Origin: Entoloma clypeatum
Lineage: Eukaryota; Basidiomycota; Agaricomycetes; Agaricales; Entolomataceae
NCBI GenBank assembly: GCA_963565915.1
Contig: OY751496.1
Coordinates: 1-64,000 of the forward strand
Length of the DNA stretch: 64,000 nt
Direction of reading: 5' to 3'
Shown here: positions 271-44,270 of the stretch, in pieces
How the letters are laid out: every line of letters begins with the position of its first letter
How positions within the stretch are numbered: position 1 is the stretch's first letter
The notes under the pieces: model-generated
What the model was told of the DNA's origin: nothing
The model's database searches: none
What the model saw: only the letters and a program-made list of their open reading frames with translations
Made by a program: the position numbers and the translations under genes

Positions 271-1028
271 CGGTTAACGTTGGGGGCTGGGGGTGAGTCC
301 GGCCTTTGCTAGACTCAACGACGGACGTGCACCCAACCCTAGGGTTGGGTTGGGAATGTGGGTCATCTCGCTCAGCTGGTGTCGGTTCGAACAATCGACA
401 TGTCTAGCGATGAGATGGCTTGCTTGTTCGCCCTTGCTTACTCCAGCTCTGATGTCGACCATTGTGTCTGGCGTTTTTACGTACATTTCGTAAATAATGT
501 ACTTAGGTGGTTTCCCGTAACTGTTCTTACATGTTACTGGGTATTGGTTAGTTTTCTTGCTGTGTGTCCTTCGGGATAGCGGTCTTCGCCTTCAAAGATC
601 TTCGGACTTTGATGTGGGAGCGATCCGTTATTTCGGTTCACTCGGGTCTCACCCGGACCGCTGGTCCGTGATGGGGATTCCCCATAGCCTTACCCTTGCA
701 GGGTCCTGAGGCACGTGCTACTATGAAATTTCATGGTGGCACGTGCCTGTGATGGGCGCTGTCTGGGCGAGCGCCGTGTGGCGTCTTCCCTGTCGCGCGA
801 CTGTCGGACTGTGTGTCGAAGTGAACAATAGGCAGAGTCAGCTGCCCCAGAGAACAATAGCGTTATTGTTCTCTGGCATGACTCAACCGATTGCCGTTTT
901 CGGACCTGATGAGGCCTATAAAGGCCGAAATAGGATCCTGGACTTATCCCAAGTCCTATTGTCCACATCGGCACACAGGCCCCTCAGTCGCACTCCTCCT
1001 CGCTGCGCTCGTCGTAGTGCTCCTCCCC
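271..1028 (+). mobile_element. Telomere-anchored hammerhead element, subfamily A, copy 1
   Basis: This unit of about 758 bases lies between the terminal telomere and internal telomeric repeats and is near-identical to 36154-36865 and 36876-37587. It holds, in order: an inverted telomere-like start (GTTGGGG at 279), an 18-base palindrome centred on CCCTAGGG (332-349), several hairpins (for example ATGGGG/CCCCAT near 670-685), a long hairpin (850-875), a hammerhead core (892-973), a final hairpin (GCACT/AGTGC, 990-1020) and a C-rich end merging with CCCCTAA repeats. Open frames of 66-100 codons are present, but there is no reverse transcriptase and I see no credible protein. I infer a non-autonomous retroelement inserted at chromosome ends; the class is inferred from structure and position only. 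Confidence 0.65.
892..973 (+). ncRNA. Type I hammerhead ribozyme, copy 1
   Basis: The core CTGATGA (906-912) is followed by stem II G-GCC/GGC-C with loop TATAAA, then GAAA (927-930). Stem III begins TAGGA (931-935) and closes with TCCTA (954-958). U959 pairs with the last A of GAAA and U960 is position 17, giving predicted cleavage between 960 and 961. Stem I is GGAC (902-905) with GTCC (961-964), an internal loop, then TGCCG (892-896) with CGGCA (969-973). All conserved core bases of the family are in the expected register. The 5' and 3' ends lie in stem I, hence type I, as in retroelement hammerheads. U at position 17 is allowed but less common than C. Activity is inferred. Confidence 0.88.
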
Positions 1029-1087
1029 TAACCCCTAACCCCTAACCCCCTAACCCCCTAACCCTAACCCCTAACCCCTAACCCCCT
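1025..1087. repeat. Interstitial telomeric repeats after element copy 1
   Basis: A short run of CCCCTAA/CCCCCTAA/CCCTAA units directly follows the 3' end of the first element. It probably marks an older chromosome end onto which the element was added, after which telomerase extended the new terminus. Confidence 0.9.
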
Positions 1088-1095
1088 ACGTATTA

Positions 1096-1798
1096 GGTAT
1101 CAGGTATTGGGTATAAAAGTATTAGGTATCAGGTATCAGGTATCAGGTATAAAGGTATCAGGTATCAGGTATAAAGGTATTAGGTATCAGGTATCAGGTA
1201 TTAGGTATCAGGTATCAGGTATTATCAGGTATCCCCATGTTTTGATCTGTTTGTTTGGTTATGTATTAAATTTACTCAGCAGGGGATTGATACAGTGGGT
1301 GCGGACAGCAGGTATGAACAGATACAGCAGATACGGACAGCAGGTATGAATAGATACAACAGGTACAGACAGCAGGTACAGCAGATACACGTTTTGGACC
1401 TTGTATCTGTGGAGGGCATAAGGTATTCCGACCCGCCATATAAGTAGGTATCAGGTATTGGGTATAAAAGTATTAGGTATCAGGTATCAGGTATCAGGTA
1501 TAAAGGTATCAGGTATCAGGTATAAAGGTATTAGGTATCAGGTATCAGGTATTAGGTATCAGGTATCAGGTATTATCAGGTATCCCCATGTTTTGATCTG
1601 TTTGTTTGGTTATGTATTAAATTTACTCAGCAGGGGATTGATACAGTGGGTGCGGACAGCAGGTATGAACAGATACAGCAGATACGGACAGCAGGTATGA
1701 ATAGATACAACAGGTACAGACAGCAGGTACAGCAGATACACGTTTTGGACCTTGTATCTGTGGAGGGCATAAGGTATTCCGACCCGCCATATAAGTAG
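1096..1798. repeat. 351-base tandem duplication rich in GGTATCA units
   Basis: Two adjacent copies (about 1096-1446 and 1447-1798, offset 351) are essentially identical. The first half of each is a microsatellite-like run of GGTATCA/GGTATTA/GGTATAAA. The second half contains a block (ATTGATACAGTGGGTGCGG and following, about 1285 and 1636) that recurs near 35415 and 37705, inside or beside the subfamily B hammerhead elements. The 80-codon open frames are products of the repeat. Confidence 0.9.
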
Positions 1799-2389
1799 GC
1801 GAGATATAAATCCCTCGAATTCCGTGATAGGTTGTCCATCAGGATAAGCAGGGGTCAAGGGCAGAGACGGCCTGGCCTGGCTGTTTTGGATACGGCGTGA
1901 CCTTCTCATGGAATGAGACGACAAATAACAGAACGTGGGCAATGGTTATGTCATCCACTTGGAACATTGTTTATTTGCACGCTTCGCTCGTATACCGTTG
2001 AACCATCAAGGGCTTGAGCGCTGTCCACGAGTTTGCGGTTCACTGTCGACTGGAATGTTTTGTAAAATTGTACCCTGGAAGGGTTTGAGCGCTGCCTGAC
2101 GGCTTGCTGCTCACACCAGAACAGGGCCTACGTTTCGCAGCGACCACATTCAATGAACATGGCCCGGAGGCATGTGGTGGATGTTTAGTACAAGTGATTT
2201 ACTGTTACGAACTACGAGAGACAAGATAACTCGAAAGAAGGCACAAGAATCAACCGGGATCATATACTTAAAAACGCAGGGCAATGCACCCCTTGAACGC
2301 ATGTCTATATTTGCCACGCATTGTACACGTGGTCTGGCTTTATATATTGTCGACTGTACTCATCCCAGATTTATATCACACACTAACAA
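1799..2389. other. Spacer upstream of the TET/JBP-like gene
   Basis: No convincing gene. Two similar stretches beginning TTGAGCGCTG occur near 2012 and 2085, with a relative near 15200. A TATA-like stretch (TATATAT near 2341) lies about 50 bases upstream of the ATG at 2390 and may be its promoter. Confidence 0.4.
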
Positions 2390-4000
2390 ATGGCGATGCC
2401 GATGGCATCGAGTGTCTGTGACGATTCAGTTCTGGGCGGAGCTATCTTGGCCAAGGATTTCGAACTGAAGGACTGTATGTTCCGAGCGGAACTGGACTCA
2501 TTCAGTAGGGATACGGACGTCAGTGACTTGTCGGATTTGGAGGAGGAAGGAGAGGTCAGATTCAATGAGATTCATACAAGTGAAGTGTTGCTCACCCCGA
2601 CCACAGTTACAGAGTGGCTCTGAAGATATCCTATCAAGAGCAACCGCTCCACTGGAGCCTCCAAGGGTGCTTTCAGCAGCGAAAAGACATAAAGAGAAGC
2701 AACGAGAGAAGAGGAGATTTCAACGCGAAAAGGATAGACTTCTCTCACATAGGGCCGAGAAGAAGGTGGTTCAAAAACATATAACGCGTCTAGGTAAATC
2801 AAGAGATCGTATTGAGGGGAGAATCCACGTGCTAGAGATGGTCGTTAAAGGTAGGGTTGGATGGATGAATGGTGAACGTGAGCGGGGCGACTGTATGGTT
2901 TATTCCTTCCCCCAGCTTGTCAGAGACCCACACAATATGCAATTTTTCGACTGGGACGGATAGTGAGTGTCGTGTTTTTGAACGATGGGCTACTCCATGA
3001 TCGCTCAAGAACCTTAGCACACCACGCCCGATCTGCGAGTCCGGGCCATTTCGACGCATAATCGGATTACTGGGGGGAACGCCGCGTGATAGAGAGGGCT
3101 GGGTCAAAGTTCAAGAGGGAGCAACAGCGGCCACCGAACGACTGGCAAAAAAGCTGCGAGCATTAAAGACGCCAACAGGTACGCCTGGTCGTCGTGGGGC
3201 TTTCAACGCTATAGCGTTCGGGATATCGTATGGAAACGGACTCCAGGTACATTTCGTCGCAGGCCACGCCCCCCGGTATCCCATTTCTCTGTTTGATTAT
3301 GTTCTAAAGGAGCCAGTTAATCTGGGACTGAATGCCACAAGGTCCGCGGCGATTGAAGAGTTTTCAAATGATGAAAATATACTGCGTATATCACGTTTCG
3401 TAAATGGTGGAGATAACATGGTCCCCCTATCGAATGTGGGCTGACACACACCGGTCGGGTTGTACAGGTCTCTACGCTGCATATTCTCCAGTCAACTATC
3501 GCGCATCAAAGGAGGTGTTGGAAGAGCTGGTGAAACGCAACCCCGGACTACGGGTGAACTTCATAGACAGTGCATGGGCCTCTGCCACGGTGAATATGGG
3601 TCCTCAGACAGTCACGGTTAAACATCGCGATGGGCTGAACAAACTCACTGGCTGGTGCGCCATAACTGCCCTCGGCAGTGGGTTCGTCGACGCGGCGGGA
3701 GGACATCTCGTCCTATGGGATCTAAAGCTGATCATTCGGTTTCCCGCGGGGGCCACGATTTTGATTCCATCAGCGTTACTCTACCACTCAAACTCTGCGA
3801 TTTCACAAGAGGAGAGACGCTACTCGCTGACCCAATATTCGTCAGGAGATCTGTTTCGTTGGGTGGCAAACGGGTTCAAAAACGACAAGGATTTCGAGGC
3901 GACAGCCACAGTACAAGAGAAAATACTCAGGGCGGACAGTGAAGCCAGACGTCGAGAAGATAACATTAATTGCTTCCTGCCGTTTCGCAATCTCAAATAG
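2390..4000 (+). CDS. TET/JBP-family 2-oxoglutarate/Fe(II) dioxygenase-like protein
   Basis: Spliced model join(2390..2554, 2613..2962, 3018..3406, 3468..4000), 478 residues; every intron is GT..AG, 55-61 bases, and the frame is kept. After an acidic N-terminus and a basic coiled stretch, the C-terminal half matches fungal TET/JBP dioxygenases. It has the HxD iron motif H354-R-D356, the GGHLVLWDLKL strand, the distal iron ligand H408 (context LLYHSN) and the oxoglutarate-binding arginine region at R418-R419 followed by YSLTQY. Family members oxidise 5-methylcytosine or thymine in DNA. In Agaricomycetes they are often linked to KDZ transposons, but I see no KDZ transposase here. All catalytic residues are present, so activity is plausible. 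The start codon is the first ATG after a TATA-like stretch. Family assignment is from motif recognition, not a search. Confidence 0.8.
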
Positions 4001-4002
4001 TA

Positions 4003-7000
4003 TTACCATAGAGTTCTTTTCACCACAGCAAATAGAATGATGTTTTTCGCTATCCTAGATTCAATTGGGCTCGGTCTTTGCCCTCCAGAGACTATCGAGA
4101 CTCGTTTCTCCCGTACCGCCTGTCGTAGGGTTAGAATAGAACAGACAGGGATAGAGCAGGTTGAAAACGTACTGTACCGTGCAATCTTGTTTGGATGTAG
4201 AGTAGAAACTGTGTGTTCTCTTACCGTCTCAGCGTTCATATACGGGGTTGGGTTGTCCATGGGTATATCCCAGTTGAAATCGAGAGGGAGGACTGCCTGT
4301 AATTGAAATTTTAGGGCTGTTGGTGAACACTGCCCATTGGAAAGTCGTTCGATGCTGGATGGAAGGACTGCCCAAATGTAGCGGACGGTTTGTCGAATGT
4401 AGGAGTCGACCCAGTCAGAGACAGCAAGTTCGATACCCCCTATAGTCTTGATAGTGCACATTTGGTTGAGTCGATGCTTGAGTGCTCGAGAAAGGAACCG
4501 TGCGTTTATCATTGCGCATCTTTCGATCGGGTCGACACCCGCACGATACGTATCCGGATGGAATACATGGGCAAGTTCCATGACGGCTATAAGACTCGTG
4601 ATGGCGGCAAGATCATACATGTCTGTGATGTCGGGAGTGTGATCACTAGCGACGTCCTGTATTTCATCTCGTGTAACTAGGTTCTAGGATGTCAGCAACA
4701 AAAAAAAAAAAAAGAAATTAGGAAACAGACCTATAACCCTATGGAAGTAGACCGTGATCCGCCTCAGCAACGACAGAGCGGCTTTGGTTCGTGCCGCATA
4801 CAAGAAGGTCTCGCCTCTAGCGAAGCTATGGAAGAAGGCGCCAGAGGACCATAATAACTTGGACAGGCTGTAACACGAGCCCCCTGCAGTAACGCTGGCT
4901 TCGACAGATAATATTCGATATCTGACATCAGGTTCAATGACTCTATTGGATGGTGTCGAGGGGAGACTGAGTGTCTACGAGCATGGACGGATTAACGCGC
5001 AACTCACAATGTCTGACCAGGACGCACGAAGAGGGCGCGTGTGGAAGGGAAGCTAACAACGTTGGACTGGAACGAGTCGATTTGGGATGCGCCTTCTTCA
5101 GGGTGGGCAATGACGACCCATTGACGCCCAACAAGCGGTGTGATATATGTGAGAAACCCATGGGTGGCGAGATTCCACTCTCCAAAGCTCCCTCGCGTCG
5201 CGGCACACACCCAACGGAGTTCTACGTCTGGGAACTCTTCCCGACGCGAGCAGTAGGGTCGATCTAGGACTCGTTCCCAGCAATACACGTCGGTCCCAAC
5301 TTCAGGCGGAGGCCAAAAGTTGGAGGGGGATCTGGGAACCTCTCGCGTAGCAAGAATCGCACCGTGTTCCGCAAAAGTGTCGCTGGTTAATAGATCCAGG
5401 TATGTCCCGAGGACGAATCGATCACCTTGGTCATGTGCGAGAGTCCGATAATCTGAGAGGATCAAATCAGCTCGACGGAACGCGGATTTGCTCATGGTCA
5501 TACCGATTATCGTAATGTTGCGGGGAGCCCCGAAAATTTCTTCCATAGTTGACATATCAAACGTGTATGACATATAGTCAGCATAGTCCGGCGTCGAGTG
5601 CAAGGCGTGAGGGGGGGTTTTACCAGATGGCTTGATAGATTGGCATACTTCCATGAACGCGTTCATATCACACACATGCTGTTAAATATAAGCAAAATTC
5701 GAAAATAAATGTGATTTATGCGTACATGAAATGCAGGAAGGTACATCGGGTCCGAATCAATTTCGGTTAATGGAACGGGATTCGTAGCTGGATGCCTCTA
5801 ATGGGAAAAGAGGACATGAATAGACAGCGATTAATAGATGTATAGGCTGATTCATGCCTGAGCTTGCAATGGTAATTGGATGCGGGACATCACTGATGGG
5901 AGAGGCGCCTGTAGGGAGAGTTAATACCGTTGGACGCATAGGTAAGAATTGCATACAAGAGGTTCGTCCAACGGAGTGACTCTAACGGCCCTTGTTTGGT
6001 TCATGTATTGCGGATGGGGCGTAGTAAGGTCAATCAATGGAACGAGGGCTTCACTCGGTTCATCAGAGATGATTGTGGATGGTCATAAAAGTCTGAGACA
6101 TACATGACAATTCCGTATCAGAGGGAGTGGGAGAGGCAGAGAGAGGAGGCGAGGGACTAGGCTGTCTCTTCTTTGGACGGGACTTGATGGGTCTACGTGA
6201 GGACAATACAAGAGGATTCCTCCTAGACGGGGCTGGGCCAGCATCAGATTGCGTGATTGAGCGTTGCTTTCCCTTCTGCCTGGTACTTAGTCGTGTCCGA
6301 GGTGTGTGAGGGGAGGGACTTGGGGATGATGGAGAAGAGGGGTTAGCGGAGGGTTGACGTAAGGGAGGAGATGTTATAGAGGACGATTGACGGGGGAGAT
6401 GGGCAGTGTTCTCAGACGGTTGAGACGGGGTAGGAGGGCGACTGCCTTCTGGTTGGGCTGTGCGAGAGGGGCCAGCCACTTGTTCCTGGCTAGCAGAAGG
6501 CGAAGTGGACGAGGGAACTGGGGATTGGAGGGATGCTATCTCGGGGCCGAGTTGAGGAGAGGTGACGGGGGGGTGAGCTGTTATTTCTGCAAAGCTCAAC
6601 GCATCAATTGAATTAGTTGATTTTTATAACAATAACTAACCTGAGAACCATAATGCGCTACGGTCACCCTCATAGCCTTGAATAAGAGCCGTAACCTTGA
6701 TCATAGTTTCCCGCAAGGCAGTTGCCGCATCCGTTTTGCGCCGAGCGATTAAGAGGATACACTCCCAGATCAAGCGTTCGATGGCCTTGATAAGGTCCGG
6801 CTTGTCTCGGGCGAAACAAATCAATGCCTGCAAACGGATATCGAGGAAAGGTAAGGACAAGGAAACGGATAATAACTTACATCAAAAGCATCAATGCGAC
6901 TGCAAGGTATATCCCTCCAAAATATTTTATCACACAAGAACATAATCGGAGAAACCGTCACGCCCAGCATGAGTGGGGTCTGAACGCGACTGAATCGATC

Positions 7001-14712: not shown

Positions 14713-15438
14713 GTCAAGGGATTCAGGACGTGACAATCACAGCGTGACACAAACAGGTGCAAGAGGCGTGATCACTCGGCGGCTGACAACCTCAGACTTT
14801 CCCACCCAGCCAAGCCATTCCGGTTAAGTCGGGTTTCGGGTCTGATGGAATTCTTAGGTTTAGATTTTTGTTTTAAAGGCATATGTTTATTCTTTTTTCA
14901 AAGCTGAGCTTGGAAAGTGATGGACTCGGATTTTGGTATGCTACAGCACACGATATTCAAATACGTGTATGATACGATAATATGATATTTTGAAACGAGA
15001 AAAAAAAAAAACGTTTTACTCGGGTTAGGCCTAGTCAGGGTTGTTCACATTGTATATTTACGACACGTGGTGTGAATCAGTCAGAAAGTGACGGAGACAG
15101 GGACGTCGGGAATTACCGCGATGTGTTTGGTTACCATCCGTTTTTTTGTTGCATGTTGACTTTCCCCTCTTCATCACTCGTGACACCCCAGAACGAGGCT
15201 GAGCGCTGCCTGCCTGGCGGCTGCTCGCTTTTGAATGGGTAGATACGTGTATGAGGACGGGTTCGGGTTCAAACCTCCGACGAAGAAGGGAATTATCGCC
15301 ACGTGTGCGTTATGAACTGGGATTGGGAGTTGAATTTATATGGTATGGCTTGACGGGACGTGCGCATGAATCCGACCCTGGAGGCCTGCAAGCCAACGTC
15401 GAATCGATACCATTGACTCCAACTCCTGACGTCATTCG
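14713..15438. other. Intergenic spacer before the minisatellite
   Basis: AT-rich stretches with an A-run at 15001. A GAGCGCTGCC motif near 15202 resembles those near 2014 and 2087. No gene seen. Confidence 0.4.
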
Positions 15439-17060
15439 TAACGTTTTCTGGGCGTGCCTGTTCGTGGGTGCGCTCTACACCGTTCGTGGTGTGTTTTCGT
15501 CTGGTCTAGTCGTGGGCCTGATGTACGCGTCGTTCGTGACGTTTTCTGGACGTGCCTGTTCGTGGGTGCGTTCTACACCGTTCGTGGTGTGTTTTCGTCT
15601 GGTCTAGTCGTGGGCCTGATGTACGCGTCGTTCGTGACGTTTTCTGGACGTGCCTGTTCGTGGGTGCGTTCTACACCGTTCGTGGTGTTTTCTGGGCGTG
15701 CCTGTTCGTGGGTGCGTTCTACACCGTTCGTGGTGTTTTCTGGGCGTGCCTGTTCGTGGGTGCGTTCTACACCGTTCGTGGTGTGTTTTCGTCTGGTCTA
15801 GTCGTGGGCCTGATGTACGCGTCGTTCGTGACGTTTTCTGGACGTGCCTGTTCGTGGGTGCGTTCTACACCGTTCGTGGTGTTTTCTGGGCGTGCCTGTT
15901 CGTGGGTGCGTTCTACACCGTTCGTGGTGTTTTCTGGGCGTGCCTGTTCGTGGGTGCGTTCTACACCGTTCGTGGTGTGTTTACGTCTGGTCTAGTCGTG
16001 GGCCTGATGTACGCGTCGTTCGTGACGTTTTCTGGACGTGCCTGTTCGTGGGTGCGTTCTACACCGTTCGTGGTGTTTTCTGGGCGTGCCTGTTCGTGGG
16101 TGCGTTCTACACCGTTCGTGGTGTGTTTTCGTCTGGTCTAGTCGTGGGCCTGATGTACGCGTCGTTCGTGACGTTTTCTGGACGTGCCTGTTCGTGGGTG
16201 CGTTCTACACCGTTCGTGGTGTTTTCTGGACGTGCCTGTTCGTGGGTGCGTTCTACACCGTTCGTGGTGTTTTCTGGGCGTGCCTGTTCGTGGGTGCGTT
16301 CTACACCGTTCGTGGTGTGTTTACGTCTGGTCTAGTCGTGGGCCTGATGTACGCGTCGTTCGTGACGTTTTCTGGACGTGCCTGTTCGTGGGTGCGTTCT
16401 ACACCGTTCGTGGTGTTTTCTGGGCGTGCCTGTTCGTGGGTGCGTTCTACACCGTTCGTGGTGTGTTTTCGTCTGGTCTAGTCGTGGGCCTGATGTACGC
16501 GTCGTTCGTGACGTTTTCTGGACGTGCCTGTTCGTGGGTGCGTTCTACACCGTTCGTGGTGTTTTCTGGACGTGCCTGTTCGTGGGTGCGTTCTACACCG
16601 TTCGTGGTGTTTTCTGGGCGTGCCTGTTCGTGGGTGCGTTCTACACCGTTCGTGGTGTGTTTTCGTCTGGTCTAGTCGTGGGCCTGATGTACGCGTCGTT
16701 CGTGACGTTTTCTGGACGTGCCTGTTCGTGGGTGCGTTCTACACCGTTCGTGGTGTTTTCTGGGCGTGCCTGTTCGTGGGTGCGTTCTACACCGTTCGTG
16801 GTGTGTTTTCGTCTGGTCTAGTCGTGGGCCTGATGTACGCGTCGTTCGTGACGTTTTCTGGACGTGCCTGTTCGTGGGTGCGTTCTACACCGTTCGTGGT
16901 GTTTTCTGGGCGTGCCTGTTCGTGGGTGCGTTCTACACCGTTCGTGGTGTTTTCTGGGCGTGCCTGTTCGTGGGTGCGTTCTACACCGTTCGTGGTGTTT
17001 TCTGGACGTGCCTGTTCGTGGGTGCGTTCTACACCGTTCGTGGTGTGTTTACGTCTGGTC
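15439..17060. repeat. GTTCGTG-rich minisatellite with higher-order structure
   Basis: The array is built from a 48-base unit (core GTGCCTGTTCGTGGGTGCG, ending ACACCGTTCGTGGTG) and a 98-base unit that adds TCTGGTCTAGTCGTGGGCC. Blocks measure 98, 98, 194, 194, 146, 194, 146, 194 and 146 bases, so from about 16038 a 194+146 pattern repeats with a 340-base period. Point variants (GGACGTGCC versus GGGCGTGCC, TTTTCGTC versus TTTACGTC) track the blocks. Open frames of up to 226 codons arise because 48 is a multiple of three; they are not credible genes. A degenerate relative occurs near 33025-33065. Confidence 0.95.
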
Positions 17061-17542
17061 TTCTCGATGATATCTTTCGATTGTCCCACTCGGGTCCCCG
17101 ATGCACATCAACACGCCTATCTGCTGGTAACGTGGGTTATTGCGTCTCTGATAGCGGATCTTGAACGTGTAGCGATGGATCTCTTCGTGCCATTTTGGTC
17201 GTGATCCCAAGTAACCCTTTGTGGTATACAAGAATTTACAGTATCTCATTTGGGCTTAAGGGATGACATCTCTGAAAGGAAAAACGCAGGCCAACACGCG
17301 TGAACAGGGATGGACGCATAATTTCAACTAAAATACACTTATTCGCGAGAAAGCGTGTAATATAGTCATCGAGATGACTGCCAATTAGCACATGCGTCTG
17401 GCGTGCGAAGTCCTCACGGCCCCAGATCCGTGTCAACAACACGATGCTACACGTGTATCAGGCATGCGTAACCGAATGATTGATAAAAACCATACCCCAT
17501 TGTTGTATAACCCATAACCCACTCTTCAACCGCCACCCCACC
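17061..17542. other. Intergenic spacer between minisatellite and PHD gene
   Basis: Unique sequence with no recognisable gene or repeat. It contains the presumed promoter of the plus-strand gene starting at 17543. Confidence 0.3.
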
Positions 17543-21387: not shown

Positions 21388-24300
21388 TCACGTGACTGGG
21401 ATACCTGTGGGGTAGGCTACAACTGGATACAGAAATTTTTCCACGGAAAGGAAGACGTTTAATATGTTATGGAACCCTTTATGCGACTTTTGATACACCC
21501 AAGAGGGGAAAGGGGAGACCGCGTCGTCAAAGGCAATGCGGGGCCAACGGATGGTCTCTGCGTGAGTGCGTAGCCCAGAAATATGCTGAAGCATCCAGAG
21601 AAACGGGAAGAGGACGTCACTCGCTGGACAATACGCAGAAGGGGTAGTTTGATATGGATGAATGTACTGCTTTTTGACACCTGCATCGAGGTAACTGACC
21701 TAGAACGATGATAGACGTCATATCGTCAAAGGAATAGAGAAATGAGGCTCACATGGACTGGCAAACCGCAAGCCGAACACACATCGTCAGGGAGTTCCAA
21801 TGACTCTCGGAATATAGAAAAGTCTTTATGGGTGAGGTTTCCGGGTAGCATTTTACAGTCTCGGAACAAGTGTGTTTCCCATTGTTGTCCCGGTATCATC
21901 CAGCATGCAACGCAGCCTTGACCAAGCGCGAGCGCGAGTCGATGCATTTGGGCCAAATGAACGTCTTCTGCTTGAGGTGCGAGGGCTTTCTCTTCTAAGA
22001 TCTGGCGTGAGTGTAACGTAGAAAATTGAGCGGAAAGCGGGAGCTCGGAGAGATCACATGCGTCAGAAAATGTCGGTGGACGAGGGGTATTGGAGGCTGA
22101 CAAATAGCAATCAGAAAAAGACGACGAGCAGGCAGCAAGGGAGGAGAGTTACGGGCGATGGCATCCTTCATCAAATGAAAAGGAAAGTCTAACTTTGTAC
22201 ATCGGTCGGGTTGTGAGCGACTTTGTTTCTCGCATACATCACATAAATGGGTGATGTTGGGCAAGAGAGTGCATGACTGAGCGTCACCGTCGAGAAATTT
22301 CTGTATAATCAGGCGGCGACAATATCGATCTTCGTCAATAGAAAGTCGAATAAGATCAGATCCGAAACGGTCAGGGTGGGGCGCATGTGGACGGAAGAGC
22401 GGTTTCTTTGGAAGGACAACGAAGGACCAACAAGGCATGTCAGGATCTTCACGACCCATCCGGCCAACTTCTTGCATAAAGGATACGATATCGTATGGAT
22501 ATCCGCGATGAATGACATGAGTGAGACTTTTGACGTCGAGTGCAACACCGAGTATTGTTGTACTGCTGATTGCTCTATACTTGCCCATACGGAAGTCGCG
22601 CAAGAGGAGATCGATATTTTCCTGGGACATATCGCCGTCACAATACGGAATACCAAGGTCGGTTGCAGTTTGGCGTGCATTGGCCTTGCTGTCGCAAAAG
22701 ATCAACAGCTTGCTGTCAGGCGAGGATTCCATTGCTAATTTGAAATGTTTCTTCATGCCTGAATCGAGGTCGTCAACACGGACAACATTGAAGGAGATGG
22801 ACGGGCGAGGTGTTGCAGTTCGGATGACCGTCCAGGAGGTGATACCAAGAGCGTCTCGAAGAGACCCTTCAAGACTCGGGGGCATGGTGGCGGTCATAAG
22901 GACGAGTTGGACTCCAAGGGTAGCGATCCATTGCAGATAGCTCATGACCGGGCGAAAGCCATCATGGGTCAAGATCAAGTGGACTTCATCGACCATAAAC
23001 CGGGCAATATGAGGGCGAAATTTGCCAATAAAGCTTTCAAATTCTCGTCGGAAAGAGAGATACTGTTCTGGGTTGATGTAGACCGAATCGATGTGTACCA
23101 AAATGTGATTCGGTAATCGACTGTCACGGTTCAAGCGCGGCCATATGGCGTACGACATCCTGTGATGATTGAATCTGGAGATGAACTGTTCCTTCATGGA
23201 CCGCATAGGGAGGAACCAGATGGTGGTGTTTGGACAATCAAAGGTTCCAGCGGCGATAAGAGCAGGGAATGTCTTTCCAGTCCCTATATTAAAAATATAT
23301 ATAATGACAAAGGGGGGTCAAAGAAAGGAACGCACCTGTTCCTGAGATGTAGAGGATGTTATCGCGGTGCTCAAACATCAGCTGAGTGACGATGGCCTGT
23401 TCTTGATTTTTAAACCCATAAAGGCCATCGTGTAGTCTCATAAAGTCACGCAAGCTCTGATATAAGTATGGATGAGGATAAATTCGAGATTTTTGTGTGT
23501 CCAGTGCGGGCGCGACCGATGACTGGAATGATTGAACATGATTGAACAATGCGACGTGAGCATCAACGATATCGCGGCGATGGGATTGTTGGATTTTTGG
23601 GAGCAGTCTGTGTTCGAGCGCATCAATGAGCAAATCAGGGGATGTTGGACGGACAGGCAGATCTGGCGATCCATAGATTGTCGACGGAAGTTCAGGGTAC
23701 ATGATAGAGAGGATGGTGCGCTCCAGGTTGCGCATATGGGCCTCCCCTTTGCAGATCGTCCGGAGGAGTTCGGGCTCATGTCCAAACATCATATGCGTGA
23801 TAGCACTGACGAGTGTAGTCTGAATGAACAAAGGGCGGTCATAACCGCTGGGCATCTGGGCGTCACCGCCATAGTGGACACGGTCCGTATGCTCGCTATG
23901 ACCGAGCTGAGCAGCAATACCACCAGGGCGAAGACTGACCATTTCGAATAGGCGATGGTTGTACTTGATGACATACGAGATGAATTGGCGGTAGATGCGA
24001 ATTGTCATTCGGACTCCGAGCTCCGAAGATGTCCAAGAACCTAACCAGAGAGATAGCTCAGCAGCAACGACGGGTCGGTAAAGACCCGCGAACAAGAATG
24101 CCTGCGCATTGTGGTAGAGGCGTGGCCGGAAAACGTGTTGCCACTCGGCAAAGATTGGGCGGAGGAAGACTAAGAATCGTGCCAATAATCGACCCAACCT
24201 GGGCAACGGAACGCGAATTGCGTTCAGTTCTTGGCCGGTGGAAGCGCTAATTTTGTTGTAAGTGCCGCGAAGGATGATGGTGTCGAGCATCCAGAGCACA

Positions 24301-26972
24301 TTGCGAGCTGAACCGGCCGGTATTTCGAGATGAACCCATGACGCATATTCAGTAGATCTTGGGGGTTCACCGCTAGTAATGATTATACCCACGGCAAACA
24401 GTTTCTGCAGTTCATATATGGCGTCCATATACGCCTGACATTTTCCCGGTATCCAGGCGATTCCAGAAGGAGTTTCCGGGTCCTGAATACCAAAATCTTC
24501 CAGTTTATGTTCGATAATATGCTGTAGCACAGACGGTTGCTGATGCCATGGGTTGCTATGGTAGGTGGCAAAACCGAAACCAAGCTCTCGTGTTCGAGGA
24601 TCATCGAGGATCGGCACGTCCTTTGGAAGATGAAACTGTCCCCACAATAAATGGTCCATAGAGCTCTCGATGTCGTCCATGAGTTTGGTCTGGCACCGAG
24701 AAAGTGTGTCGAGCGAGATACATTTTCCATCGACGGTGAATGTGCGTCCATCGTTGGTGGGTGAGTTGAATAGAATTGTGGTGTGGTCCGAGGATCGGTA
24801 TGCACTTAGATGGCGCTTGAGAAGGTACAACGATGGCATAACAGATTCTAGGCCTTCAAGGTAAACCCTGATTGATTGATATAGTCTGCCATAAAATACG
24901 GGGTGTCGGATCAGCGGACTTGGAAGAATGAGACGGAAACTGTGAGACGGCTTACTCTTCAAGAGATGTATGAGGATATTTCTGCCTTTGTACCAACATG
25001 ATATATCCAAGCGTGACCCTACCTGTGAACAAGATGCTAGCGATCTTGGGTGTGATGTCGTTTGGAGACATCCATTGTCCAGAGATCCTAACAGAAGACA
25101 GCATGATGTAACGTGTAAAGACACTGCGGAACGGATCATCCTTTCCAGTGCTCTGGTTCTGAGTGTATAGGGCCTCTAGTAGCTTAATGAGAAGCTCCTG
25201 CACCGAATCCTGATAGGATGGTATGGTCCTCCACTCCGAGGCAGCATAGGGTGACGGCGTCATGGGTTTGAGAGTGTCCTGCTGCCAATGGCGATCAAGA
25301 TCCGGTATGCCCTCCGGGGTGTCATCGTCTTCCTCATCGTCGTCGTCGTCTGAATTTTCGTCATCGTCGATATCCTCGTCTGAAGGACCATGGTCGGGAT
25401 GAGGACAGTGGTTGAGGGCTTCATCAAGGGCCTGCGCAATGATACGGATATTATGGGGTACGTCAAACATATATTCGGGGTCTGGGCGGCACACGTTGTT
25501 CAAGAGGAGGATGATAGCCTCGGTGAGCCGACGTGCGTATTTTGCATGTGTTTCATATCTGACATCCTTGTGATGACGCTCGTAAGGGTTTTTATGTTCA
25601 GGTGTGGGCCGGACTCCGATTTTCCTTCTGAAGATGTGGGTCGTGATACAACGCTGCATGTGTGCCAAGTACGCATGAATACGACGAGGTAGCGAGTTAT
25701 ACACGTGATGGTCCACAGTTAGTCGATATAACTGGCTTATTCGAGCCAGCTCCTTGCCCTCGAGATGCTGCACCCAGCCTTGTTCATGTAGAAATCTGGC
25801 CATGGCTCTATCATCATGCGGGCTCGAGATAATTGGATTGGAAGGGGAGCGCGATTCTATCGTGTGTTTATACTTGAGCCAGACTTTGGTGCCGGAAACA
25901 GGCGGTGGCCGTTGCGTCACTTCGAAATAAGAACCGGTACCTAATCGCTGGCATGGGCGATAGACAAAGTCACGCCGTTTCCCTGCAGATGAAGGCAAGC
26001 CGCATTTGTGGCCTTTGAATGATTTGGACACGGTTTTCGCATGTTCGTTTTGTTCCGGATCGAGAGAGAAACCGCGTTTACAGGTTTGGCAAACTTGCAT
26101 GTTCAGATGAAGTCGTATACCAGGTATGGGATCAACGGGTTCGTGTGGAACGGTAGGGGTATCAGTAAATTGGTCAAAGAGTTGTTCATGGCTTTCCACA
26201 TAGGCTTTCAATTGTTTGACTTCGGAAGGGGACTTGGAAATGGTGGTACACTTTGTCGCGTGTTTGACTGGCTTTCGCGGGTTGACGATGTTCCCACAAT
26301 TGGTACAGACGATGATGTTGTAGGTTCTGTTGATAAGCCATCCCAGAGGACGAAATAAATCTCTCATAACATCGAACGAGAATTCGAGAGGCGATACCGC
26401 AGAGGCTACGGGTGGTTTCAACGGAGTGGGGGGCATGGGGGTGGTTGAGCGCCGTTGTTGGGGTCCGGGGAGCATGGGAGTGATAGAGGGCCCTTGTTGG
26501 GGTCCTGACATTGTCGATAGATTTGATGGCTCTGTCGGCTTCTCACAGCTGCGGCAGTGGATTTGTATGTCCTGAGCGGTGAGGCCTCCTGTTTGGCAGT
26601 TCGGGCAAGAGAACGTTCCATCGAGAGTGGGATAAACTTCGCGCAAGGATCCTGAAATAAGGATAGTGACGGAATAGAGGGAAACGTTCGGTGAAGGTGG
26701 ATGACTAGGAAGTTGAGAGGTTGATGTACACGTGGGTTGCGTTTGGTTTTTTGAGCGCTTGTGCCTAAGGCGCAAACGAGGTGTACAATCGGAATTTATA
26801 CACCAAGATCACTTACGGTTTGTGTGGCGCTGGTGTGGGGGGTGCTGAAGACTGGTTGGAACCCTGGGATCGTGTCCTTTTTGGTCTGAAAAAGGTGGTA
26901 CGTGACCTTCCGCAAAAAAAAAAAAAAAACAAGGACGGAGCAGTTAACGGATACGGACCCTTTTAGGGGCAT
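21388..26972 (-). CDS. Telomere-linked RecQ-family helicase
   Basis: Roughly 1,700 residues from many exons. The inferred first exon starts at 26972 (MPLKG...), then a basic Ser/Pro region. Next comes a DUF3505/OrsD-like part with two CxxC...H..C fingers (about 26320 and 26100) and an acidic run (about 25370-25320). A middle region (about 24300-23850) ends in LGHSEHTDRVHYG and recalls a tyrosine-recombinase fold. The RecQ core follows: Walker A SGTGTGKT split by an intron near 23340-23285, DEVH at 22979-22990, motif V near 22520 and QEVGRMGR near 22460, then a Cys-rich zinc subdomain (CDVCEKQ). A second zinc-like domain closes the protein. The last codons GIPVT-stop lie inside the shared CACGTG motif. 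Helicase motifs are intact, so it could be functional. This family is typical of fungal chromosome ends. Confidence 0.82.
21389..21403 (-). promoter_or_regulatory. Shared CACGTG motif, exact copy
   Basis: An exact TATCCCAGTCACGTG on the minus strand, overlapping the helicase stop codon and lying 64 bases upstream of the ATG of the next minus-strand gene (21324). The GTCACGTG core matches the general bHLH/CBF1-type site. Confidence 0.45.
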
Positions 26973-35412: not shown

Positions 35413-36130
35413 TTAGGGGATTGATACAGTGGGTGCGGACAGCAGGTATGAACAGATACAGCAGATACGGACAGCAGGTATGAATAGATACAACAGGTAC
35501 AGACAGGGTATACCTTATACCTGAGGTATATACCTTATACCTATAGACCTGGGGTATTGGACCTTCCAATCTCTTGTATCTCCTAAATACATTATATCCA
35601 TCTATACCTCCATACCCTGAAACTAAACATTAGATTCAAAAAGCATACTGATAGGGTGTTGCCTGTAACTGTTCTTACGGTTTTTTTGGGTTCTGGTTAG
35701 TTTACTTGTTGTATATCCTTCGGGATAGCTTTTCGTCTTCAAAGTTCTTGAGACTTTGATTTGGGAACGACTCGCTATTTCGGTTCACTGTGGTGCGCCT
35801 TTCTGTCGGTTCGCTGATGGGGATTCCCCATAGCCTTGTCCTTGCAGGGTCCCTTCGGGACCCTGTTCGGTTCCGGGTTGTGGCGTTCTTCCCTGTCACG
35901 CCGCTGTCAGACTAGGCCCAAAAGTGAACAATAGGCAGAGTCAGCTGTCCCAGAGAACAATAGCGTTATTGTTCTCTGGAATGACTCAACGATTGCCGTA
36001 TTCGGACCTGATGAGGCCTTTAAAGGCCGAAATAGGATCCTGGACTTTCCCCAAGTCCTATTGTCCACTCGGCACAGGCCCCACAGTCGCCCCTTCCATA
36101 GTCCTTCTTTGTGAAGGAACTACTTCTTCC
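35413..36130 (+). mobile_element. Telomere-anchored hammerhead element, subfamily B, copy 1
   Basis: Near-identical to 37701-38423 and homologous in its 3' half to subfamily A (shared ATGGGG/CCCCAT hairpin, AGAGAACAATA hairpin and ribozyme). The left end is abrupt and lacks telomeric repeats, so it is probably 5'-truncated. The 3' end has a hairpin (AGTCCTTC/GAAGGAACT, about 36099-36120) and merges with CCCTAA repeats at 36129. Confidence 0.6.
35994..36074 (+). ncRNA. Type I hammerhead ribozyme, copy 2
   Basis: Core CTGATGA at 36008-36014 and GAAA at 36029-36032. Stem II loop is TTTAAA. Stem I GGAC/GTCC and TGCCG/CGGCA are kept while the internal loop differs from subfamily A. Predicted cleavage is between 36062 and 36063. 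Confidence 0.87.
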
Positions 36131-36153
36131 CTAACCCCTAACCTAACCCTAAC
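36129..36153. repeat. Interstitial telomeric repeats between elements
   Basis: CCCTAA/CCCCTAA units join the 3' end of element B copy 1 to the 5' end of element A copy 2. Confidence 0.85.
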
Positions 36154-36865
36154 CGGTTAACGTTAGGGGCTGGGGGTGAGTCCGGCCTTTGCTAGACTCA
36201 ACGACGGACGTGCGCCCAACCCTAGGGTTGGGTTGGGAATGTGGGTCATCTCGCTCAGCTGGTGTCGGTTCGAACAATCGACATGTCTAGCGATGAGATG
36301 GCCTGCTTGTTCGCCCTTGCTTACTCCAGCTCTGATGTCGACCATTGTGTCTGGCGTTTTTACGTACATTTCGTAAATAATGTACTTAGGTGGTTTCCCG
36401 TAACTGTTCTTACATGTTACTGGGTATTGGTTAGTTTTCTTGTTGTGTGTCCCTCGGGATAACGGTCTTCGCCTTCAAAGATCTTCGGACTTTGATGTGG
36501 GAGCGATCCGCTATCTCGGTTCACTCGGATCTCACCCGGACCGTTGGTCCGTGATGGGGATTCCCCATAGCCTTACCTTTGCAGGGTCCTACTCGGGTCC
36601 TGTCTTGGCGAGCGCTATTGTGGCGTTTTCCTCTCACGACCTGTCAGGCGTGTGACGAAGTGGACAATAGGCGGAGTCAGCTGCCCAGAGAACAATAGTT
36701 CTATTGTTCTCTGAATGACTCAACCGATTGCCGTTTTCGGACCTGATGAGGCCTATAAAGGCCGAAATAGGATCCCGGACTTATCCCAAGTCCTATTGTC
36801 CACATCGGCACACAGGCCCCTCAGTCGCACTCCTCCTCGCTGCGCTCGTCGTAGTGCTCCTCCCC
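36154..36865 (+). mobile_element. Telomere-anchored hammerhead element, subfamily A, copy 2
   Basis: A 712-base unit between telomeric repeats on both sides. It shares the layout of 271-1028 but lacks about 46 bases in the middle. CCCTAAC at 36147-36153 and GTTAGGG at 36162-36168 form a head-to-head telomeric hairpin at its left junction. Confidence 0.65.
36729..36810 (+). ncRNA. Type I hammerhead ribozyme, copy 3
   Basis: Core CTGATGA 36743-36749 and GAAA 36764-36767; stem I GGAC/GTCC plus TGCCG/CGGCA; stem III differs from copy 1 by one T to C change. Predicted cleavage is between 36797 and 36798. Confidence 0.87.
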
Positions 36866-36875
36866 TAACCCTAAC
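36862..36875. repeat. Two telomeric units joining element copies
   Basis: CCCCTAACCCTAAC is all that separates two subfamily A copies. Confidence 0.8.
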
Positions 36876-37587
36876 CGGTTAACGTTAGGGGCTGGGGGTG
36901 AGTCCGGCCCTTGCTAGACTCAACGACGGACGTGCGCCCAACCCTAGGGTTGGGTTGGGAATGTGGGTCATCTCGCTCAGCTGGTGTCGGTTCGAACAAT
37001 CGACATGTCTAGCGATGAGATGGCTTGCTTGTTCGCCCTTGCTTACTCCAGCTCTGATGTCGACCATTGTGTCTGGCGTTTTTACGTACATTTCGTAAAT
37101 AATGTACTTAGGTGGTTTCCCGTAACTGTTCTTACATGTTACTGGGTATTGGTTAGTTTTCTTGTTGTGTGTCCTTCGGGATAACGGTCTTCGCCTTCAA
37201 AGATCTTCGGACTTTGATGTGGGAGCGATCCGTTATCTCGGTTCACTCGGATCTCACCCGGACCGCTGGTCCGTGATGGGGATTCCCCATAGCCTTACCT
37301 TTGCAGGGTCCTACTCGGGTCCTGTCTTGGCGAGCGCTATTGTGGCGTTTTCCTCTCACGACCTGTCAGGCGTGTGACGAAGTGGACAATAGGCGGAGTC
37401 AGCTGCCCAGAGAACAATAGTTCTATTGTTCTCTGAATGACTCAACCGATTGCCGTTTTCGGACCTGATGAGGCCTATAAAGGCCGAAATAGGATCCCGG
37501 ACTTATCCCAAGTCCTATTGTCCACATCGGCACACAGGCCCCTCAGTCGCACTCCTCCTCGCTGCGCTCGTCGTAGTGCTCCTCCCC
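36876..37587 (+). mobile_element. Telomere-anchored hammerhead element, subfamily A, copy 3
   Basis: A tandem near-identical copy of 36154-36865 (offset 722, including the telomeric linker). Differences are a few substitutions. Its C-rich 3' end runs into telomeric repeats at 37584. Confidence 0.65.
37451..37532 (+). ncRNA. Type I hammerhead ribozyme, copy 4
   Basis: Identical in sequence to copy 3. Core CTGATGA 37465-37471; predicted cleavage between 37519 and 37520. Confidence 0.87.
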
Positions 37588-37611
37588 TAACCCCTAACCC
37601 CTAACCCCCAA
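37584..37611. repeat. Interstitial telomeric repeats before element B copy 2
   Basis: Four CCCCTAA-type units follow the third subfamily A copy and precede AACCAGTTAAC, which resembles the ACCGGTTAAC start of subfamily A. Confidence 0.85.
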
Positions 37612-38423
37612 CCAGTTAACAGCAGACACTAACACCAAACTCTAACATGTGACATGTGACACGTATTTTGATCTGTTTGTTTGGTTATGTATTAAATTTA
37701 CTCAGCAGGGGATTGATACAGTGGGTGCGGACAGCAGGTATGAACAGATACAGCAGATACGGACAGCAGGTATGAATAGATACAACAGGTACAGACAGGG
37801 TATACCTTATACCTGAGGTATATACCTTATACCTATAGACCTGGGGTATTGGACCTTCCAATCTCTTGTATCTCCTAAATACATTATATCCATCTATACC
37901 TCCATACCCTGAAACTAAACATTAGATTCAAAAAGCATACTGATAGGGTGTTGCCTGTAACTGTTCTTACGGTTTTTTTGGGTTCTGGTTAGTTTACTTG
38001 TTGTATATCCTTCGGGATAGCTTTTCGTCTTCAAAGTTCTTGAGACTTTGATTTGGGAACGACTCGCTATTTCGGTTCACTGTGGTGCGCCTTTCTGTCG
38101 GTTCGCTGATGGGGATTCCCCATAGCCTTGTCCTTGCAGGGTCCCTTCGGGACCCTGTTCGGTTCCGGGTTGTGGCGTTCTTCCCTGTCACGCCGCTGTC
38201 AGACTAGGCCCAAAAGTGAACAATAGGCAGAGTCAGCTGTCCCAGAGAACAATAGCGTTATTGTTCTCTGGAATGACTCAACGATTGCCGTATTCGGACC
38301 TGATGAGGCCTTTAAAGGCCGAAATAGGATCCTGGACTTTCCCCAAGTCCTATTGTCCACTCGGCACAGGCCCCACAGTCGCCCCTTTCCATAGTCCTTC
38401 TTTGTGAAGGAACTACTTCTTCC
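37612..38423 (+). mobile_element. Telomere-anchored hammerhead element, subfamily B, copy 2
   Basis: About 812 bases; the part from 37701 matches 35413-36128 at an offset of 2288-2292. Its left end follows telomeric repeats, so it is probably the full-length subfamily B unit. It includes the block also present at about 1240-1400 and 1590-1750. The right end (CTTCTTCC at 38423) meets unrelated sequence with no telomeric repeat, so this may be the innermost insertion or a recombination joint. Confidence 0.6.
38286..38366 (+). ncRNA. Type I hammerhead ribozyme, copy 5
   Basis: Same sequence as copy 2. Core CTGATGA 38300-38306; predicted cleavage between 38354 and 38355. Confidence 0.87.
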
Positions 38424-38607
38424 TATCATGGGGTTGAACCAGAACCGGTGACCATTCCCTCGTGCTCGTTCCTCGCTCGCGCGTGCAAGGACGAGAACGT
38501 ATGAACGCAGAACGTGGTAACGCGTTACGTGTATGTGACATTCTCCACTACTCACAACTTTTGAGTTTGCGCTTCCGATGGTTACGAGCACTAACAGCTG
38601 GTCACCG

Positions 38608-38767: not shown

Positions 38768-39732
38768 AGCTGGGTAGTATGGGGGAAGCCATGACGAAAA
38801 ACTCGAGCCCGACGGCCGTTTGATTTTCAGGTACAGAGCTTGTGTTCATAGTTGTCGACATCAATCTAATCATAACTTTCCTCCGACGAGGACGACGTTT
38901 TCTCCCCTTTACTAGTTGCTCTGCTTGTCTCGATGGTAATTAACTTTTAGTATGCGGGAATGGACCAGCATACAACACATTTGGAACACATGGTCAATCC
39001 CTTTGTTCTTGAGAACATACTATAAGTACCATGTATTTGGACATCATTTGTTTAGTGCTTCGTTGTCGAAGAATCTGGGGCGGCGAGTTAGGGCAAATGT
39101 GATTTTGGAACGAGAGAGGTACGGACCCCTTCGAGTCAGTGGAGACGGCGGTATTGGTAGGTCTGAGTGAGGGTATGATGGTGACGAGGGAGGTGCTGGT
39201 GACGAGACCAGCGCTATGGTGCTCGTGGAACGGAAAAGGTGCTGCCCACCTACGTGCTCGTCGTGGTCGAGTTATCGCCTAGAGTTAATGGAGCCGGAGG
39301 GATTCGAGGGAAGACTGGCAGGAAATGGAAGTCAGTTAGTCGATTGATCAGTGTCGGTGACGTAGGACATTGTGCAGAGCGTCTATCCGCAGGGTGGTCG
39401 TTCGCGAAAGTCTGGAGATGGGGGTACGAATCATTCTTTCGTTTCCTTTTTGCCGAGCGCCACGCACCCAATACATGCACGCAAAGCATGCATGAGACGG
39501 AGCCTTGAGTCGGAGTGTGGCGGCTCGACGCTCCGGATCATATCAGTCAGCCTTCAGGCAGCATACCCGCAGTACCAAGAGTTCGAAAGTTCATTGTTGA
39601 ACTCTCAGTACGCAAAATTGAAACGCTAACCCAAGATGATGCAATTAACAGTAGCTGTGCTTTCTGGGATGTACATGTAGAAAACCCGATACCTCTCCTC
39701 GAACCCAAAAGAAAATGAGATATGTAGGATCG

Positions 39733-40550
39733 TTAGAGGCTGATGTTGACGTACGCCTTGATCAAGGCGGTGATGTTAACGAGACCGAGGAGCTTGACGA
39801 TTGCAAGGACGTCGGCTTGAGCATTCAGAAGACCGCAGAACGAGACCTGGAGGCCAGCAACAATAGAGAAGGTGACCTGAAGCAGCTCCGCCAGGCAGGC
39901 GCTGTTGGAATGACCTGTCAGTAACAGCACTCAACAACGACCATACAACTTACCCGATGCTGACAATGAATTGAAGGCAAACTTTGATATCCGACTTGAC
40001 ACAGGCATGGAAGGCGACCGACAGAACGGTGCAAATGGCCTAAACAGCAATCGTTATTGAGCTGACACACTCAGGCTTGTGACTGTGTTGCAGACTTACG
40101 ACAAAGACATTGATGACGAGTTGGGCGAGAGCCGCGACAGAGATCACTGCGCCGTTGGTGGAAAGGACGGCGCTGAGTTCGAGGTCGACCATCGCCTTCA
40201 CATCGACGACGGCAGCTCCAAGAGCGCCGCGGAGCATCTCGAGGTGTGGCTCAATGACTTCGAAGTTCACGGTACCGTCGACACCGACAGCTGCGTCTGC
40301 CAAAGAAGACAAATTTTGAGTGAAACGGAAAGCGAGAGAAAAGGGATGGACACCACTAACTCAGATTGTCTGAAACAACGGCGACGCGACTTTGCATATC
40401 GGCAAAGAGGGTGGGGATGTTGGAGCAGCCACAACGCCGGTCGAGAGCGTTGTGGTCTGCTTCAGCTGCGCGCGCAGGAAGACTAGTGGCAGAGGCGAGA
40501 CCGGCGAGGGCACCGGTGGCGAAGAGGAGGATGGACTTGAAGGAAGGCAT
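39733..40550 (-). CDS. Small secreted protein, left copy
   Basis: Model complement(join(39733..39901, 39954..40039, 40100..40296, 40361..40550)), 213 residues, with GT..AG introns of 52-64 bases. A signal peptide (MPSFKSILLFATGALAGLASA) is followed by RCGCSNIPTLFADMQ and then hydrophobic helices rich in Ala, Val and Leu. The paralogue at 57254-58046 has the same four exons, including an identical 86-base third exon. I recall related small proteins in Rhizoctonia annotated only as transmembrane or hypothetical. It does not have the eight-cysteine hydrophobin pattern. Probably secreted or membrane-associated; function unknown. Confidence 0.72.
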
Positions 40551-40640
40551 TGTGAAATGAGTGTGAGGTTGGGAGGAGAAGCTAGCGAGCTGAGAGACGA
40601 CTGAAGCTGATGGAGGGGGTGTCGTCGGCGGCAGGGGAAA

Positions 40641-40647
40641 CTTTATA
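40641..40647 (-). promoter_or_regulatory. TATA-like box of secreted-protein gene
   Basis: TATAAAG on the minus strand about 91 bases upstream of the ATG at 40550; the paralogue has TATAAAA about 97 bases upstream. Confidence 0.5.
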
Positions 40648-43600: not shown

Positions 43601-44270
43601 AGAGCGAGTCAGGTAAGTTTGAGCGATGGTGCAGCGGGGGGGTCTCACCTGTCTTGTTATCATTGGTATGCTGACAGTCTCCCCTTTCCTGTCCTCCCCT
43701 CCCTCCGTCGTCCCGCGTGGCTGCGTGTCACAGTGCCACGGTCATTGATAGTGCGGGTGAGGGCTGGCCACGAATTAGTGGCGATAGAGGGCAAGTGCGA
43801 GAGTGCATACCTGTAAAGCTTTCCTTCTTTCTCGTCGTCCACATTCACTGTTTTCGCCCATACGCATGTGTTGCGCTTTCATGGAATAGGGTGGGGACAT
43901 ATGGTGACGGGGACGTGGAGTGATCGCTGTCATGACTATAGGGCCTGCCTACGGGAGACTAGGGACGTAGCGGGTCGTCGTCCGAGAACTTCCGCTGTTG
44001 AAGTGGCTGTTGGATAGGTTAGTGGGTAGGGAAGGCGGCGGCGAGGGTGCATACCTGCAGAGCGATCATTCGTCGTTGTCATTTTGGCAATGCAGCTTGA
44101 CGGTCGTGGGCCTGACACGCCATTCGTGCCAATGGTGAGGTGACACATAGGTGGTGGGGGCGGCGGGCGGCATTGTGGACGAAAAGTGGTTATCTGTGTT
44201 TGTCAATGACGTCCGAACCAAATACTTCTACTACTTTCCGCTTCATCTTGCAGGATCTGAACGTACTTGG

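Follow-up and report, generated by a model that had tools for sequence, protein, structure and literature searches.

A stretch of 64,000 nt from the fungus Entoloma clypeatum (OY751496.1), referred to here as the window, starts at a chromosome end and contains repeats with the core of a hammerhead ribozyme. The locus raises the question of whether these repeats hold real hammerheads and, if so, what kind of sequence would carry a self-cutting motif directly beside telomere repeats.

Five hammerhead motifs near a chromosome end

Hammerhead motifs are found at 892-973, 35994-36074, 36729-36810, 37451-37532 and 38286-38366, each with CTGATGA, a 4-bp stem II, GAAA, a stem III, U16.1 and a two-part stem I. 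The original prediction had named these five units, with their core, helices and register, and was borne out in all these points by inspection and by a descriptor scan. The descriptor (stems of at least 4 bp, CTGANGA, GAA with A15.1, U16.1, and any base but G at position 17, i.e. NUH) matched the + strand of the window exactly five times, at the five units; the - strand gave no match, and neither did 200 windows simulated with a first-order Markov model. It also reproduced the proposed cuts, after 960, 36062, 36797, 37519 and 38354. The assignment to type I, a subtelomeric occurrence of a kind known from retroelements, was likewise right, as the CTGANGA, GAAA and NUH core is in register in 5/5 units and the three helices leave stem I with the open end. 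In copy 1 (predicted cut 960/961) stem I is formed by 892-896/969-973 and 902-905/961-964, followed by the core at 906-912, stem II at 913-916/923-926, GAAA at 927-930 and a 7-bp stem III at 930-936/953-959 with a 16-nt loop. The internal loop of stem I faces the 6-nt loop II, both loops being present, which is the layout of complete type I hammerheads. Judged by sequence, the window units are real type I hammerhead motifs, for which self-cleavage is predicted.

Folding gives a mixed picture of these motifs. The bare units of 82 nt (subfamily A) and 81 nt (subfamily B) have the hammerhead as their minimum-energy structure, with z of -3.3 and -2.9, respectively. When flanks are included (880-985, and also with 80 nt upstream) the minimum-energy fold is not the hammerhead, and its share of the ensemble, 0.24-0.32 without flanks, is at most 0.08 with a 20-60 nt tail, via another competing fold. 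No match at the gathering score was returned by an Rfam search of the window; the best sub-threshold match was RF02275 (HH9), whose cut-off is 52 bits and which scored 22.0 and 25.2 bits on the A units (n=3) and 18.8 bits on both B units. Under the rule by which the original prediction was to be refuted, that of no covariance-model match above threshold, this result counts against it, but we judge the rule too strict, since the curated cut-off applies to a family of the HH9 type and the case from structure is a strong one.

All five copies lie on the + strand. Copy 1 (272-1024, subfamily A) is the outermost element of the chromosome, preceded by a telomere tract of CCCCTAA and variants (1-271, + strand) that marks the chromosome end and runs into the telomere-like start of the copy, which blurs its exact 5' limit. 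It is a 5'-truncated terminal repeat without an ORF, matching positions 4790-5604 of a 10-kb locus, L028, that is described below. Its 3' tail, of type A (974-1024), is directly followed by CCCCTAA repeats (1025-1088), which are proposed to anneal to the telomere 3' overhang. The terminal repeat also holds GCTCAGCTGG ... GGTTCGAAC at 364-399, which we take to resemble tRNA A and B boxes and which would suggest a pol III promoter. Directly inside copy 1, at 1094-1744, there is a minisatellite-like GGTATCAGGTAT region duplicated at 351-bp spacing.

Copies 2-5 make up an interstitial, partly duplicated cluster at 35.6-38.4 kb. Copy 2 (35655-36128) is a 5'-truncated member of subfamily B whose hammerhead is followed by CCCTAACCCC; copies 3 (36155-36861) and 4 (36877-37583) belong to subfamily A2 and continue after the hammerhead with CCCCTAACCC and CCCCTAACCCC, respectively; copy 5 (37947-38424, subfamily B) has no telomere repeats after its tail. 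Reverse-complement telomere repeats are present at the 3' end of four of the five window copies, and two of the units, neither with an ORF, follow each other head to tail 722 bp apart. The cluster, in which 35415-38006 is partly duplicated (35415-35714 being identical to 37707-38006), looks as if it were a former chromosome end. Elsewhere in the window, 15385-17092 is a repeat array with a period of 48/50 bp, in which a 300-nt reference has 30 overlapping copies, and 38884-47745 and 47946-56811 form a direct duplication at ~9.06 kb spacing, identical among the blocks listed. On the - strand, 21998-26808 holds adjacent open frames, one with DEAD and Helicase_C and the other with a sub-cut-off OrsD match; this is a helicase gene near a chromosome end, and one that we take to be reminiscent of telomere-linked RecQ helicases.

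A reverse transcriptase frame between hammerhead-bearing repeats

Across the genome there are at least 49 matches to the hammerhead unit, and 37 of the 49 are identical over 111 bases, on many ends. Such identity, like that of the window blocks at 35415-35714 and 37707-38006, is in keeping with a passive subtelomeric satellite that spreads by recombination between chromosome ends and carries the hammerhead as a relic. The 722-bp head-to-tail spacing without an ORF is in turn what a retrozyme might leave behind, that is, a small non-coding element (~720-nt units) that makes circular RNA via successive hammerhead cuts and takes its reverse transcriptase (RT) from others; retrozymes of 600-1000 nt are described as carrying hammerheads (PMC6155905). 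The window itself holds no RT match, and it is the longer copies at other ends of the genome that bear on both readings.

Loci were compared over the first 10 kb of 19 contigs plus the second and third stretch of contig C17 (21 stretches), and the descriptor found 44 hammerheads in 11 of them. Several stretches have a long open frame flanked by two hammerhead-bearing terminal repeats. L028 (contig C8, 1-10000) starts with a telomere tract, a truncated repeat with the hammerhead core at 664 and CTCCCCTAACCCC, and goes on with an open frame at 790-4362, a second repeat with its core at 5473 and CTCCTCCCCTAACCCC. The longer copies have an RT frame of ~1190 codons and 4.8 kb between hammerheads. 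The original prediction was right about the hammerheads; what it lacked is their context, as the 3' end of an RT-encoding, probably telomere-attaching element present at other ends and not as a separate repeat family. A shared order is seen at the 3' ends, with the hammerhead, ~50-70 nt and then CCCTAACCC, the complement of the telomere overhang. The tails fall into three types (A, B and C), which differ in sequence and keep the same layout of hammerhead, tail and CCCTAA in nearly all listed copies, the last part being lost or changed in a few, such as window copy 5. Among the 51 tails of the window and 20 loci, 45 retain the 5' half of the hammerhead and six do not, five of these six beginning at a telomere tract.

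The identity of the encoded protein was assessed piecewise. A 400-aa piece matches PADLOC Drt3a at 1.5e-8 and Pfam RVT_1 at E 0.0021, below the cut-off, and the corresponding piece of another copy has no RVT_1 match; the best PDB match of the product is again Drt3a, at E 0.11. Taken together these matches identify the product, as a prediction, as a reverse transcriptase. A GIY-YIG endonuclease had no Pfam match up to E 1 in the six frames scanned, and no relatives were found among viral and prokaryote contigs. The product contains FYGIPKIHK...RPI, GDVVAFYPSI, YGRYIDD, PFLDM and YISHHPLDVKRG, which we take to be motifs of Penelope-like elements (PLEs), and the putative PLE label rests partly on these motifs. 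Counting against the assignment, the whole protein had no Pfam match, and neither copy reached the RVT_1 cut-off. Between subfamilies A and B the frames differ at dS 0.617 with dN/dS 0.076 over 751 codons (RT and C-terminal part), and the N-terminal part is looser, at 0.316 over 390 codons.

Of 39 RT matches, 36 reach the C-terminus, and the starts lie at residue 1-2 in 12 and at residues 100-1067 in 27. Twenty-seven of the 39 are within 50 kb of the end of a large contig, every one with its 3' end toward the centromere and none opposite, the remainder being interstitial (5/39) or on C17, a 55-kb contig with unplaced ends (7/39). Hammerhead matches behave alike, 34 of at least 49 listed being near ends, with none opposite, four interstitial and 11 on C17. 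Telomere repeats are present at the truncated 5' ends of copies, and the points at which a telomere tract meets the element are many and varied (110 tracts, 86 of them followed by element or telomere sequence, many of these 86 mapped rows being the element's own mini-tracts). At L045 9626-10000 on C17, a long TTAGGGG tract runs into an N stretch with oppositely oriented element copies on either side, probably two chromosome ends scaffolded together.

With a probability of about 85%, we regard the window units as 5'-truncated copies of an endonuclease-deficient, telomere-attaching Penelope-like retroelement that works as set out below. This reading is supported by the RT frames between hammerhead repeats, the varied starts, the uniform orientation, the telomere joints, the order shared by the three tail types, the low dN/dS, the near-invariant hammerhead and the like descriptions of endonuclease-deficient PLEs (PMC3846280) and Terminons (PMC6431247); anatomy, orientation, truncation and telomere caps are shown at the level of sequence. 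We count against it the weakly supported PLE assignment, the interstitial matches and those on C17, the sub-threshold Rfam scores, the departure of the flanked fold from the hammerhead, the findings on an animal PLE given below and copy 5 with its missing telomere repeats. A passive satellite is quite improbable: recombination may move copies as well, but the telomere-capped 5' truncations of graded length, the frames kept open in both subfamilies and an RT dN/dS of 0.076 require selection and reverse transcription. A retrozyme is very unlikely when longer copies with the same ends carry an RT frame, the units are joined via telomere repeats and not unit to unit at the cut, and truncated copies start at varied points.

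For the telomere-attaching element we propose that its RNA would end in the anti-cut 12-mer discussed below, a hairpin, the type I hammerhead, a short tail and CCCUAACCC. The CCCUAA end of this RNA would anneal to the G-rich 3' overhang of the chromosome, whose 3' end would be extended by the element's RT, with synthesis mostly stopping early and telomere repeats then being added onto the new end. The hammerhead would process transcripts, and in the 5' repeat it would release the ORF-bearing RNA from what lies upstream. In the 3' repeat, by contrast, its cutting would have to be restrained because it would separate the body from the annealing tail. Transcription, cleavage and transposition of the element are all predictions.

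Solo tails starting near the cut do occur, as would be expected of dead ends left by cleavage. For subfamily A, 19 telomere junctions in the terminal repeat were considered, and three of them are no more than 5 nt away from the cut (P 0.0016 against a uniform null; P 0.0075 among the eight junctions in the last 200 nt), with one of 19 within 2 nt (P 0.10). This test left out two junctions of the locus L042, which had been fetched by a pattern aimed at the cut, as well as ORF junctions, subfamily B rows, mini-tracts (~795, 4720, 4792, 4839) and matches within telomere tracts. A genome-wide pattern search found junctions near the cut at three places (four rows) for A tails and none for B or C tails. 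The excess is suggestive only, as the 5-nt width was chosen after the data were seen and the L042 junction retains at least 2 nt from before the cut. A microhomology weighting over the whole repeat was unusable, being dominated by the repeat's internal telomere tract.

Conservation of the hammerhead and of a strand upstream

The hammerhead varies little among copies. The 51 hammerheads reduce to five distinct sequences, one of them 5'-truncated, and the complete ones vary in 6 of 82 columns, all of them among the 31 unpaired non-core columns (P 0.002), in agreement with the earlier suggestion that subfamilies differ mainly in loops and that structure is under selection. Direct alignment of A and B gives five differences where ~34 would be expected for a neutral 82 nt at the dS of the frames (Jukes-Cantor arithmetic); an automatic alignment with an identity of 0.88 (10 differences) was discarded due to a misplaced 3-nt gap. 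In the same comparison, the identity of adjacent 50-column blocks lies anywhere from 0.26 to 0.98, with 0.55 for the tail. Covariation within the hammerhead is uninformative, as no pair varies. Conversion between subfamilies could mimic this conservation, but narrow tracts would be needed; one hammerhead (L021:8274) is mixed, with A-type loops and a B-type one-base deletion in stem I. By these comparative measures, RT and hammerhead are both under selection, and the near-invariance of the hammerhead between ORF subfamilies at dS ~0.6 looks new.

What the hammerhead is kept for is a separate matter. It may serve solely as a structural 3' end, for RT binding and exposure of the telomeric repeats, with self-cleavage incidental or suppressed and without a role in the life cycle. 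The annealing tail would be lost if the 3' repeat were cut, the flanking sequence favours other folds in the models, and a fold exposing the telomeric stretch is what has been proposed for rotifer Terminons (PMC6431247). In addition, an animal PLE inserts in vitro without hammerhead cleavage, mainly from unprocessed RNA, and its RNA-seq reads showed no ends at the cut (PMC11167929); by analogy, these data would speak against a need for cleavage here. On the other side, none of the core bases varies among the four distinct sequences that are complete, not even those needed for chemistry and not for shape, though the subfamilies stand at dS ~0.6. We consider a purely structural role a serious candidate, if one that we would not bet on.

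A well-conserved block starts near GTG[A/G]ACAATAGG, at a distance of 83-85 nt from the core that follows it (95 nt in a single copy, whose hairpin is longer), and includes a 12-mer that we term anti-cut. It is complementary to CCTATTGTCCAC, the six nt on each side of the cut, and is centred there. In copy 1 it reads GTGAACAATAGG (821-832, + strand) and is complementary to 955-966 in 11 of 12 positions; in the other window copies it lies, also on the + strand, at 35924-35935, 36660-36671, 37382-37393 and 38216-38227. Among 35 distinct modules (55 copies), 29 have the whole 12-mer, and in the remaining six the 5' truncation falls within or after it. Complementarity to the cut site is 12/12 in A2 and C and 11/12 in A1 and B, and simulated upstream regions did as well in 5, 0, 2 and 0 of 3000 (A1, A2, B and C, respectively).

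A conserved long hairpin separates the 12-mer from the hammerhead, in copy 1 at 835-884 (+ strand) with GAGTCA/TGACTC and a 13-bp inner helix (847-859/864-876), and type C exchanges two of its inner pairs on both sides. Pairs with a double change (two) are no more frequent than in shuffles (255/500); double-change cells (six) exceed all 500 shuffles, but the sequences are related. A hairpin in the tail was also considered as a feature and rejected, its energy being no better than shuffles for A (z 0.27) and weak for B (z -1.7).

With 80 nt upstream, the ensemble lies 8-13 kcal/mol below the enforced hammerhead (four copies, three subfamilies), and when five copies are folded to minimum energy, the cut strand is paired with 9-10 bases of the 12-mer. 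These models point to a non-cutting alternative fold, the energies, which cover secondary structure and ignore loop-loop contacts and the order of transcription, carrying no implication as to whether it is favoured in the cell. The restraint needed in the 3' repeat could come from the 12-mer holding the cut strand in such a fold, or the 12-mer could splint both products. Extended to the whole element, the 12-mer would make the hammerhead a self-regulated ribozyme, switching between cutting in the 5' repeat, which frees the ORF-bearing RNA, and holding in the 3' repeat, which keeps the annealing tail or splints the cut ends such that RT crosses the nick. We advance this switch tentatively and think it rather unlikely as it stands. 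We incline slightly to the reading that the 12-mer is unrelated to the cut and belongs to a set of ACAATAG motifs that serve the hairpin or a protein: the hairpin arms share ACAATAG/CTATTGT with it, and double changes are absent from its pairing with the cut strand, where 11 of the 12 pairs are invariant and one is unpaired in 5 of 10 rows. That reading has to contend with 11-12/12 complementarity in four lineages, which simulations reach in the few cases given above, and with the centring on the cut.

Relation to known elements

The putative element fits the endonuclease-deficient PLEs, which include Athena/Terminon and the fungal Coprina, and priming at exposed chromosome ends has been proposed by others for the family. 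Coprina, a group with fungal membership, is alike in its RT frame without GIY-YIG, its location at chromosome ends, uniform orientation and 5' truncation with telomere caps; it is unlike in that no account of a hammerhead module was found for it in the open literature, the comparison being one by description. Coprina is named as a PLE superfamily (PMC6515669), endonuclease-deficient PLEs are described at chromosome ends with uniform orientation and telomere-capped 5' truncations, including in fungi (PMC3846280), and PLEs are placed at mushroom chromosome ends (PMC7473861). The Terminons/Athena of bdelloid rotifers have a 3' hammerhead directly before reverse-complement telomere repeats and truncated head-to-tail copies (PMC6431247). 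The original prediction that no such family had been described from a fungal chromosome end was therefore too wide. What holds is narrower: a hammerhead in a fungal telomeric PLE was not found in the open literature, where an earlier description is possible.

Terminons differ in reaching up to 40 kb with extra ORFs, where the present element has 4.8 kb between hammerheads, and also in the form of the ribozyme. All available PLE sequences are said to show hammerheads, usually minimal and without helix III and tertiary contacts (review PMC6155905, similarly PMC7761336), and Terminon hammerheads are given as minimal, without helix III or loop-loop contacts (PMC7761336). The minimal form does not occur among our 10 aligned modules, all of which have a helix III of 7 bp, and this helix looks new when set against the published forms in those sources. 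The canonical PLE Poseidon of Anolis shares the pLTR-ORF-pLTR layout and a hammerhead close to the ORF start, and differs in having a GIY-YIG endonuclease, of which none was found here, and internal insertion (PMC11167929). Retrozymes, too, have hammerheads in repeats whose units measure several hundred nt (PMC6155905), and are non-coding and spread by circular RNA, unlike the RT frame and telomere joints seen here. A survey of the Pleurotus genome lists five Rfam type-3 hammerheads, a different type (PMC5040776).

The type of element is therefore known, and it is the form of the hammerhead and the conserved strand ~85 nt upstream, which on the fold models could switch it off, that look new. 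The element described here is compact, has a seemingly complete hammerhead and three types of tail, and is present both as several long copies of near-identical sequence and as a series of chromosome-end insertions, in which it can be tested whether cleavage helps or hinders telomere attachment, and how a self-cutting motif persists beside the sequence needed for priming. If the switch reading were true, copies that start at the cut site would record, in the genome, that the ribozyme acts in living cells, and the anti-cut strand, if it acts in this way, would be a natural riboregulator inside a telomere-extending retroelement.
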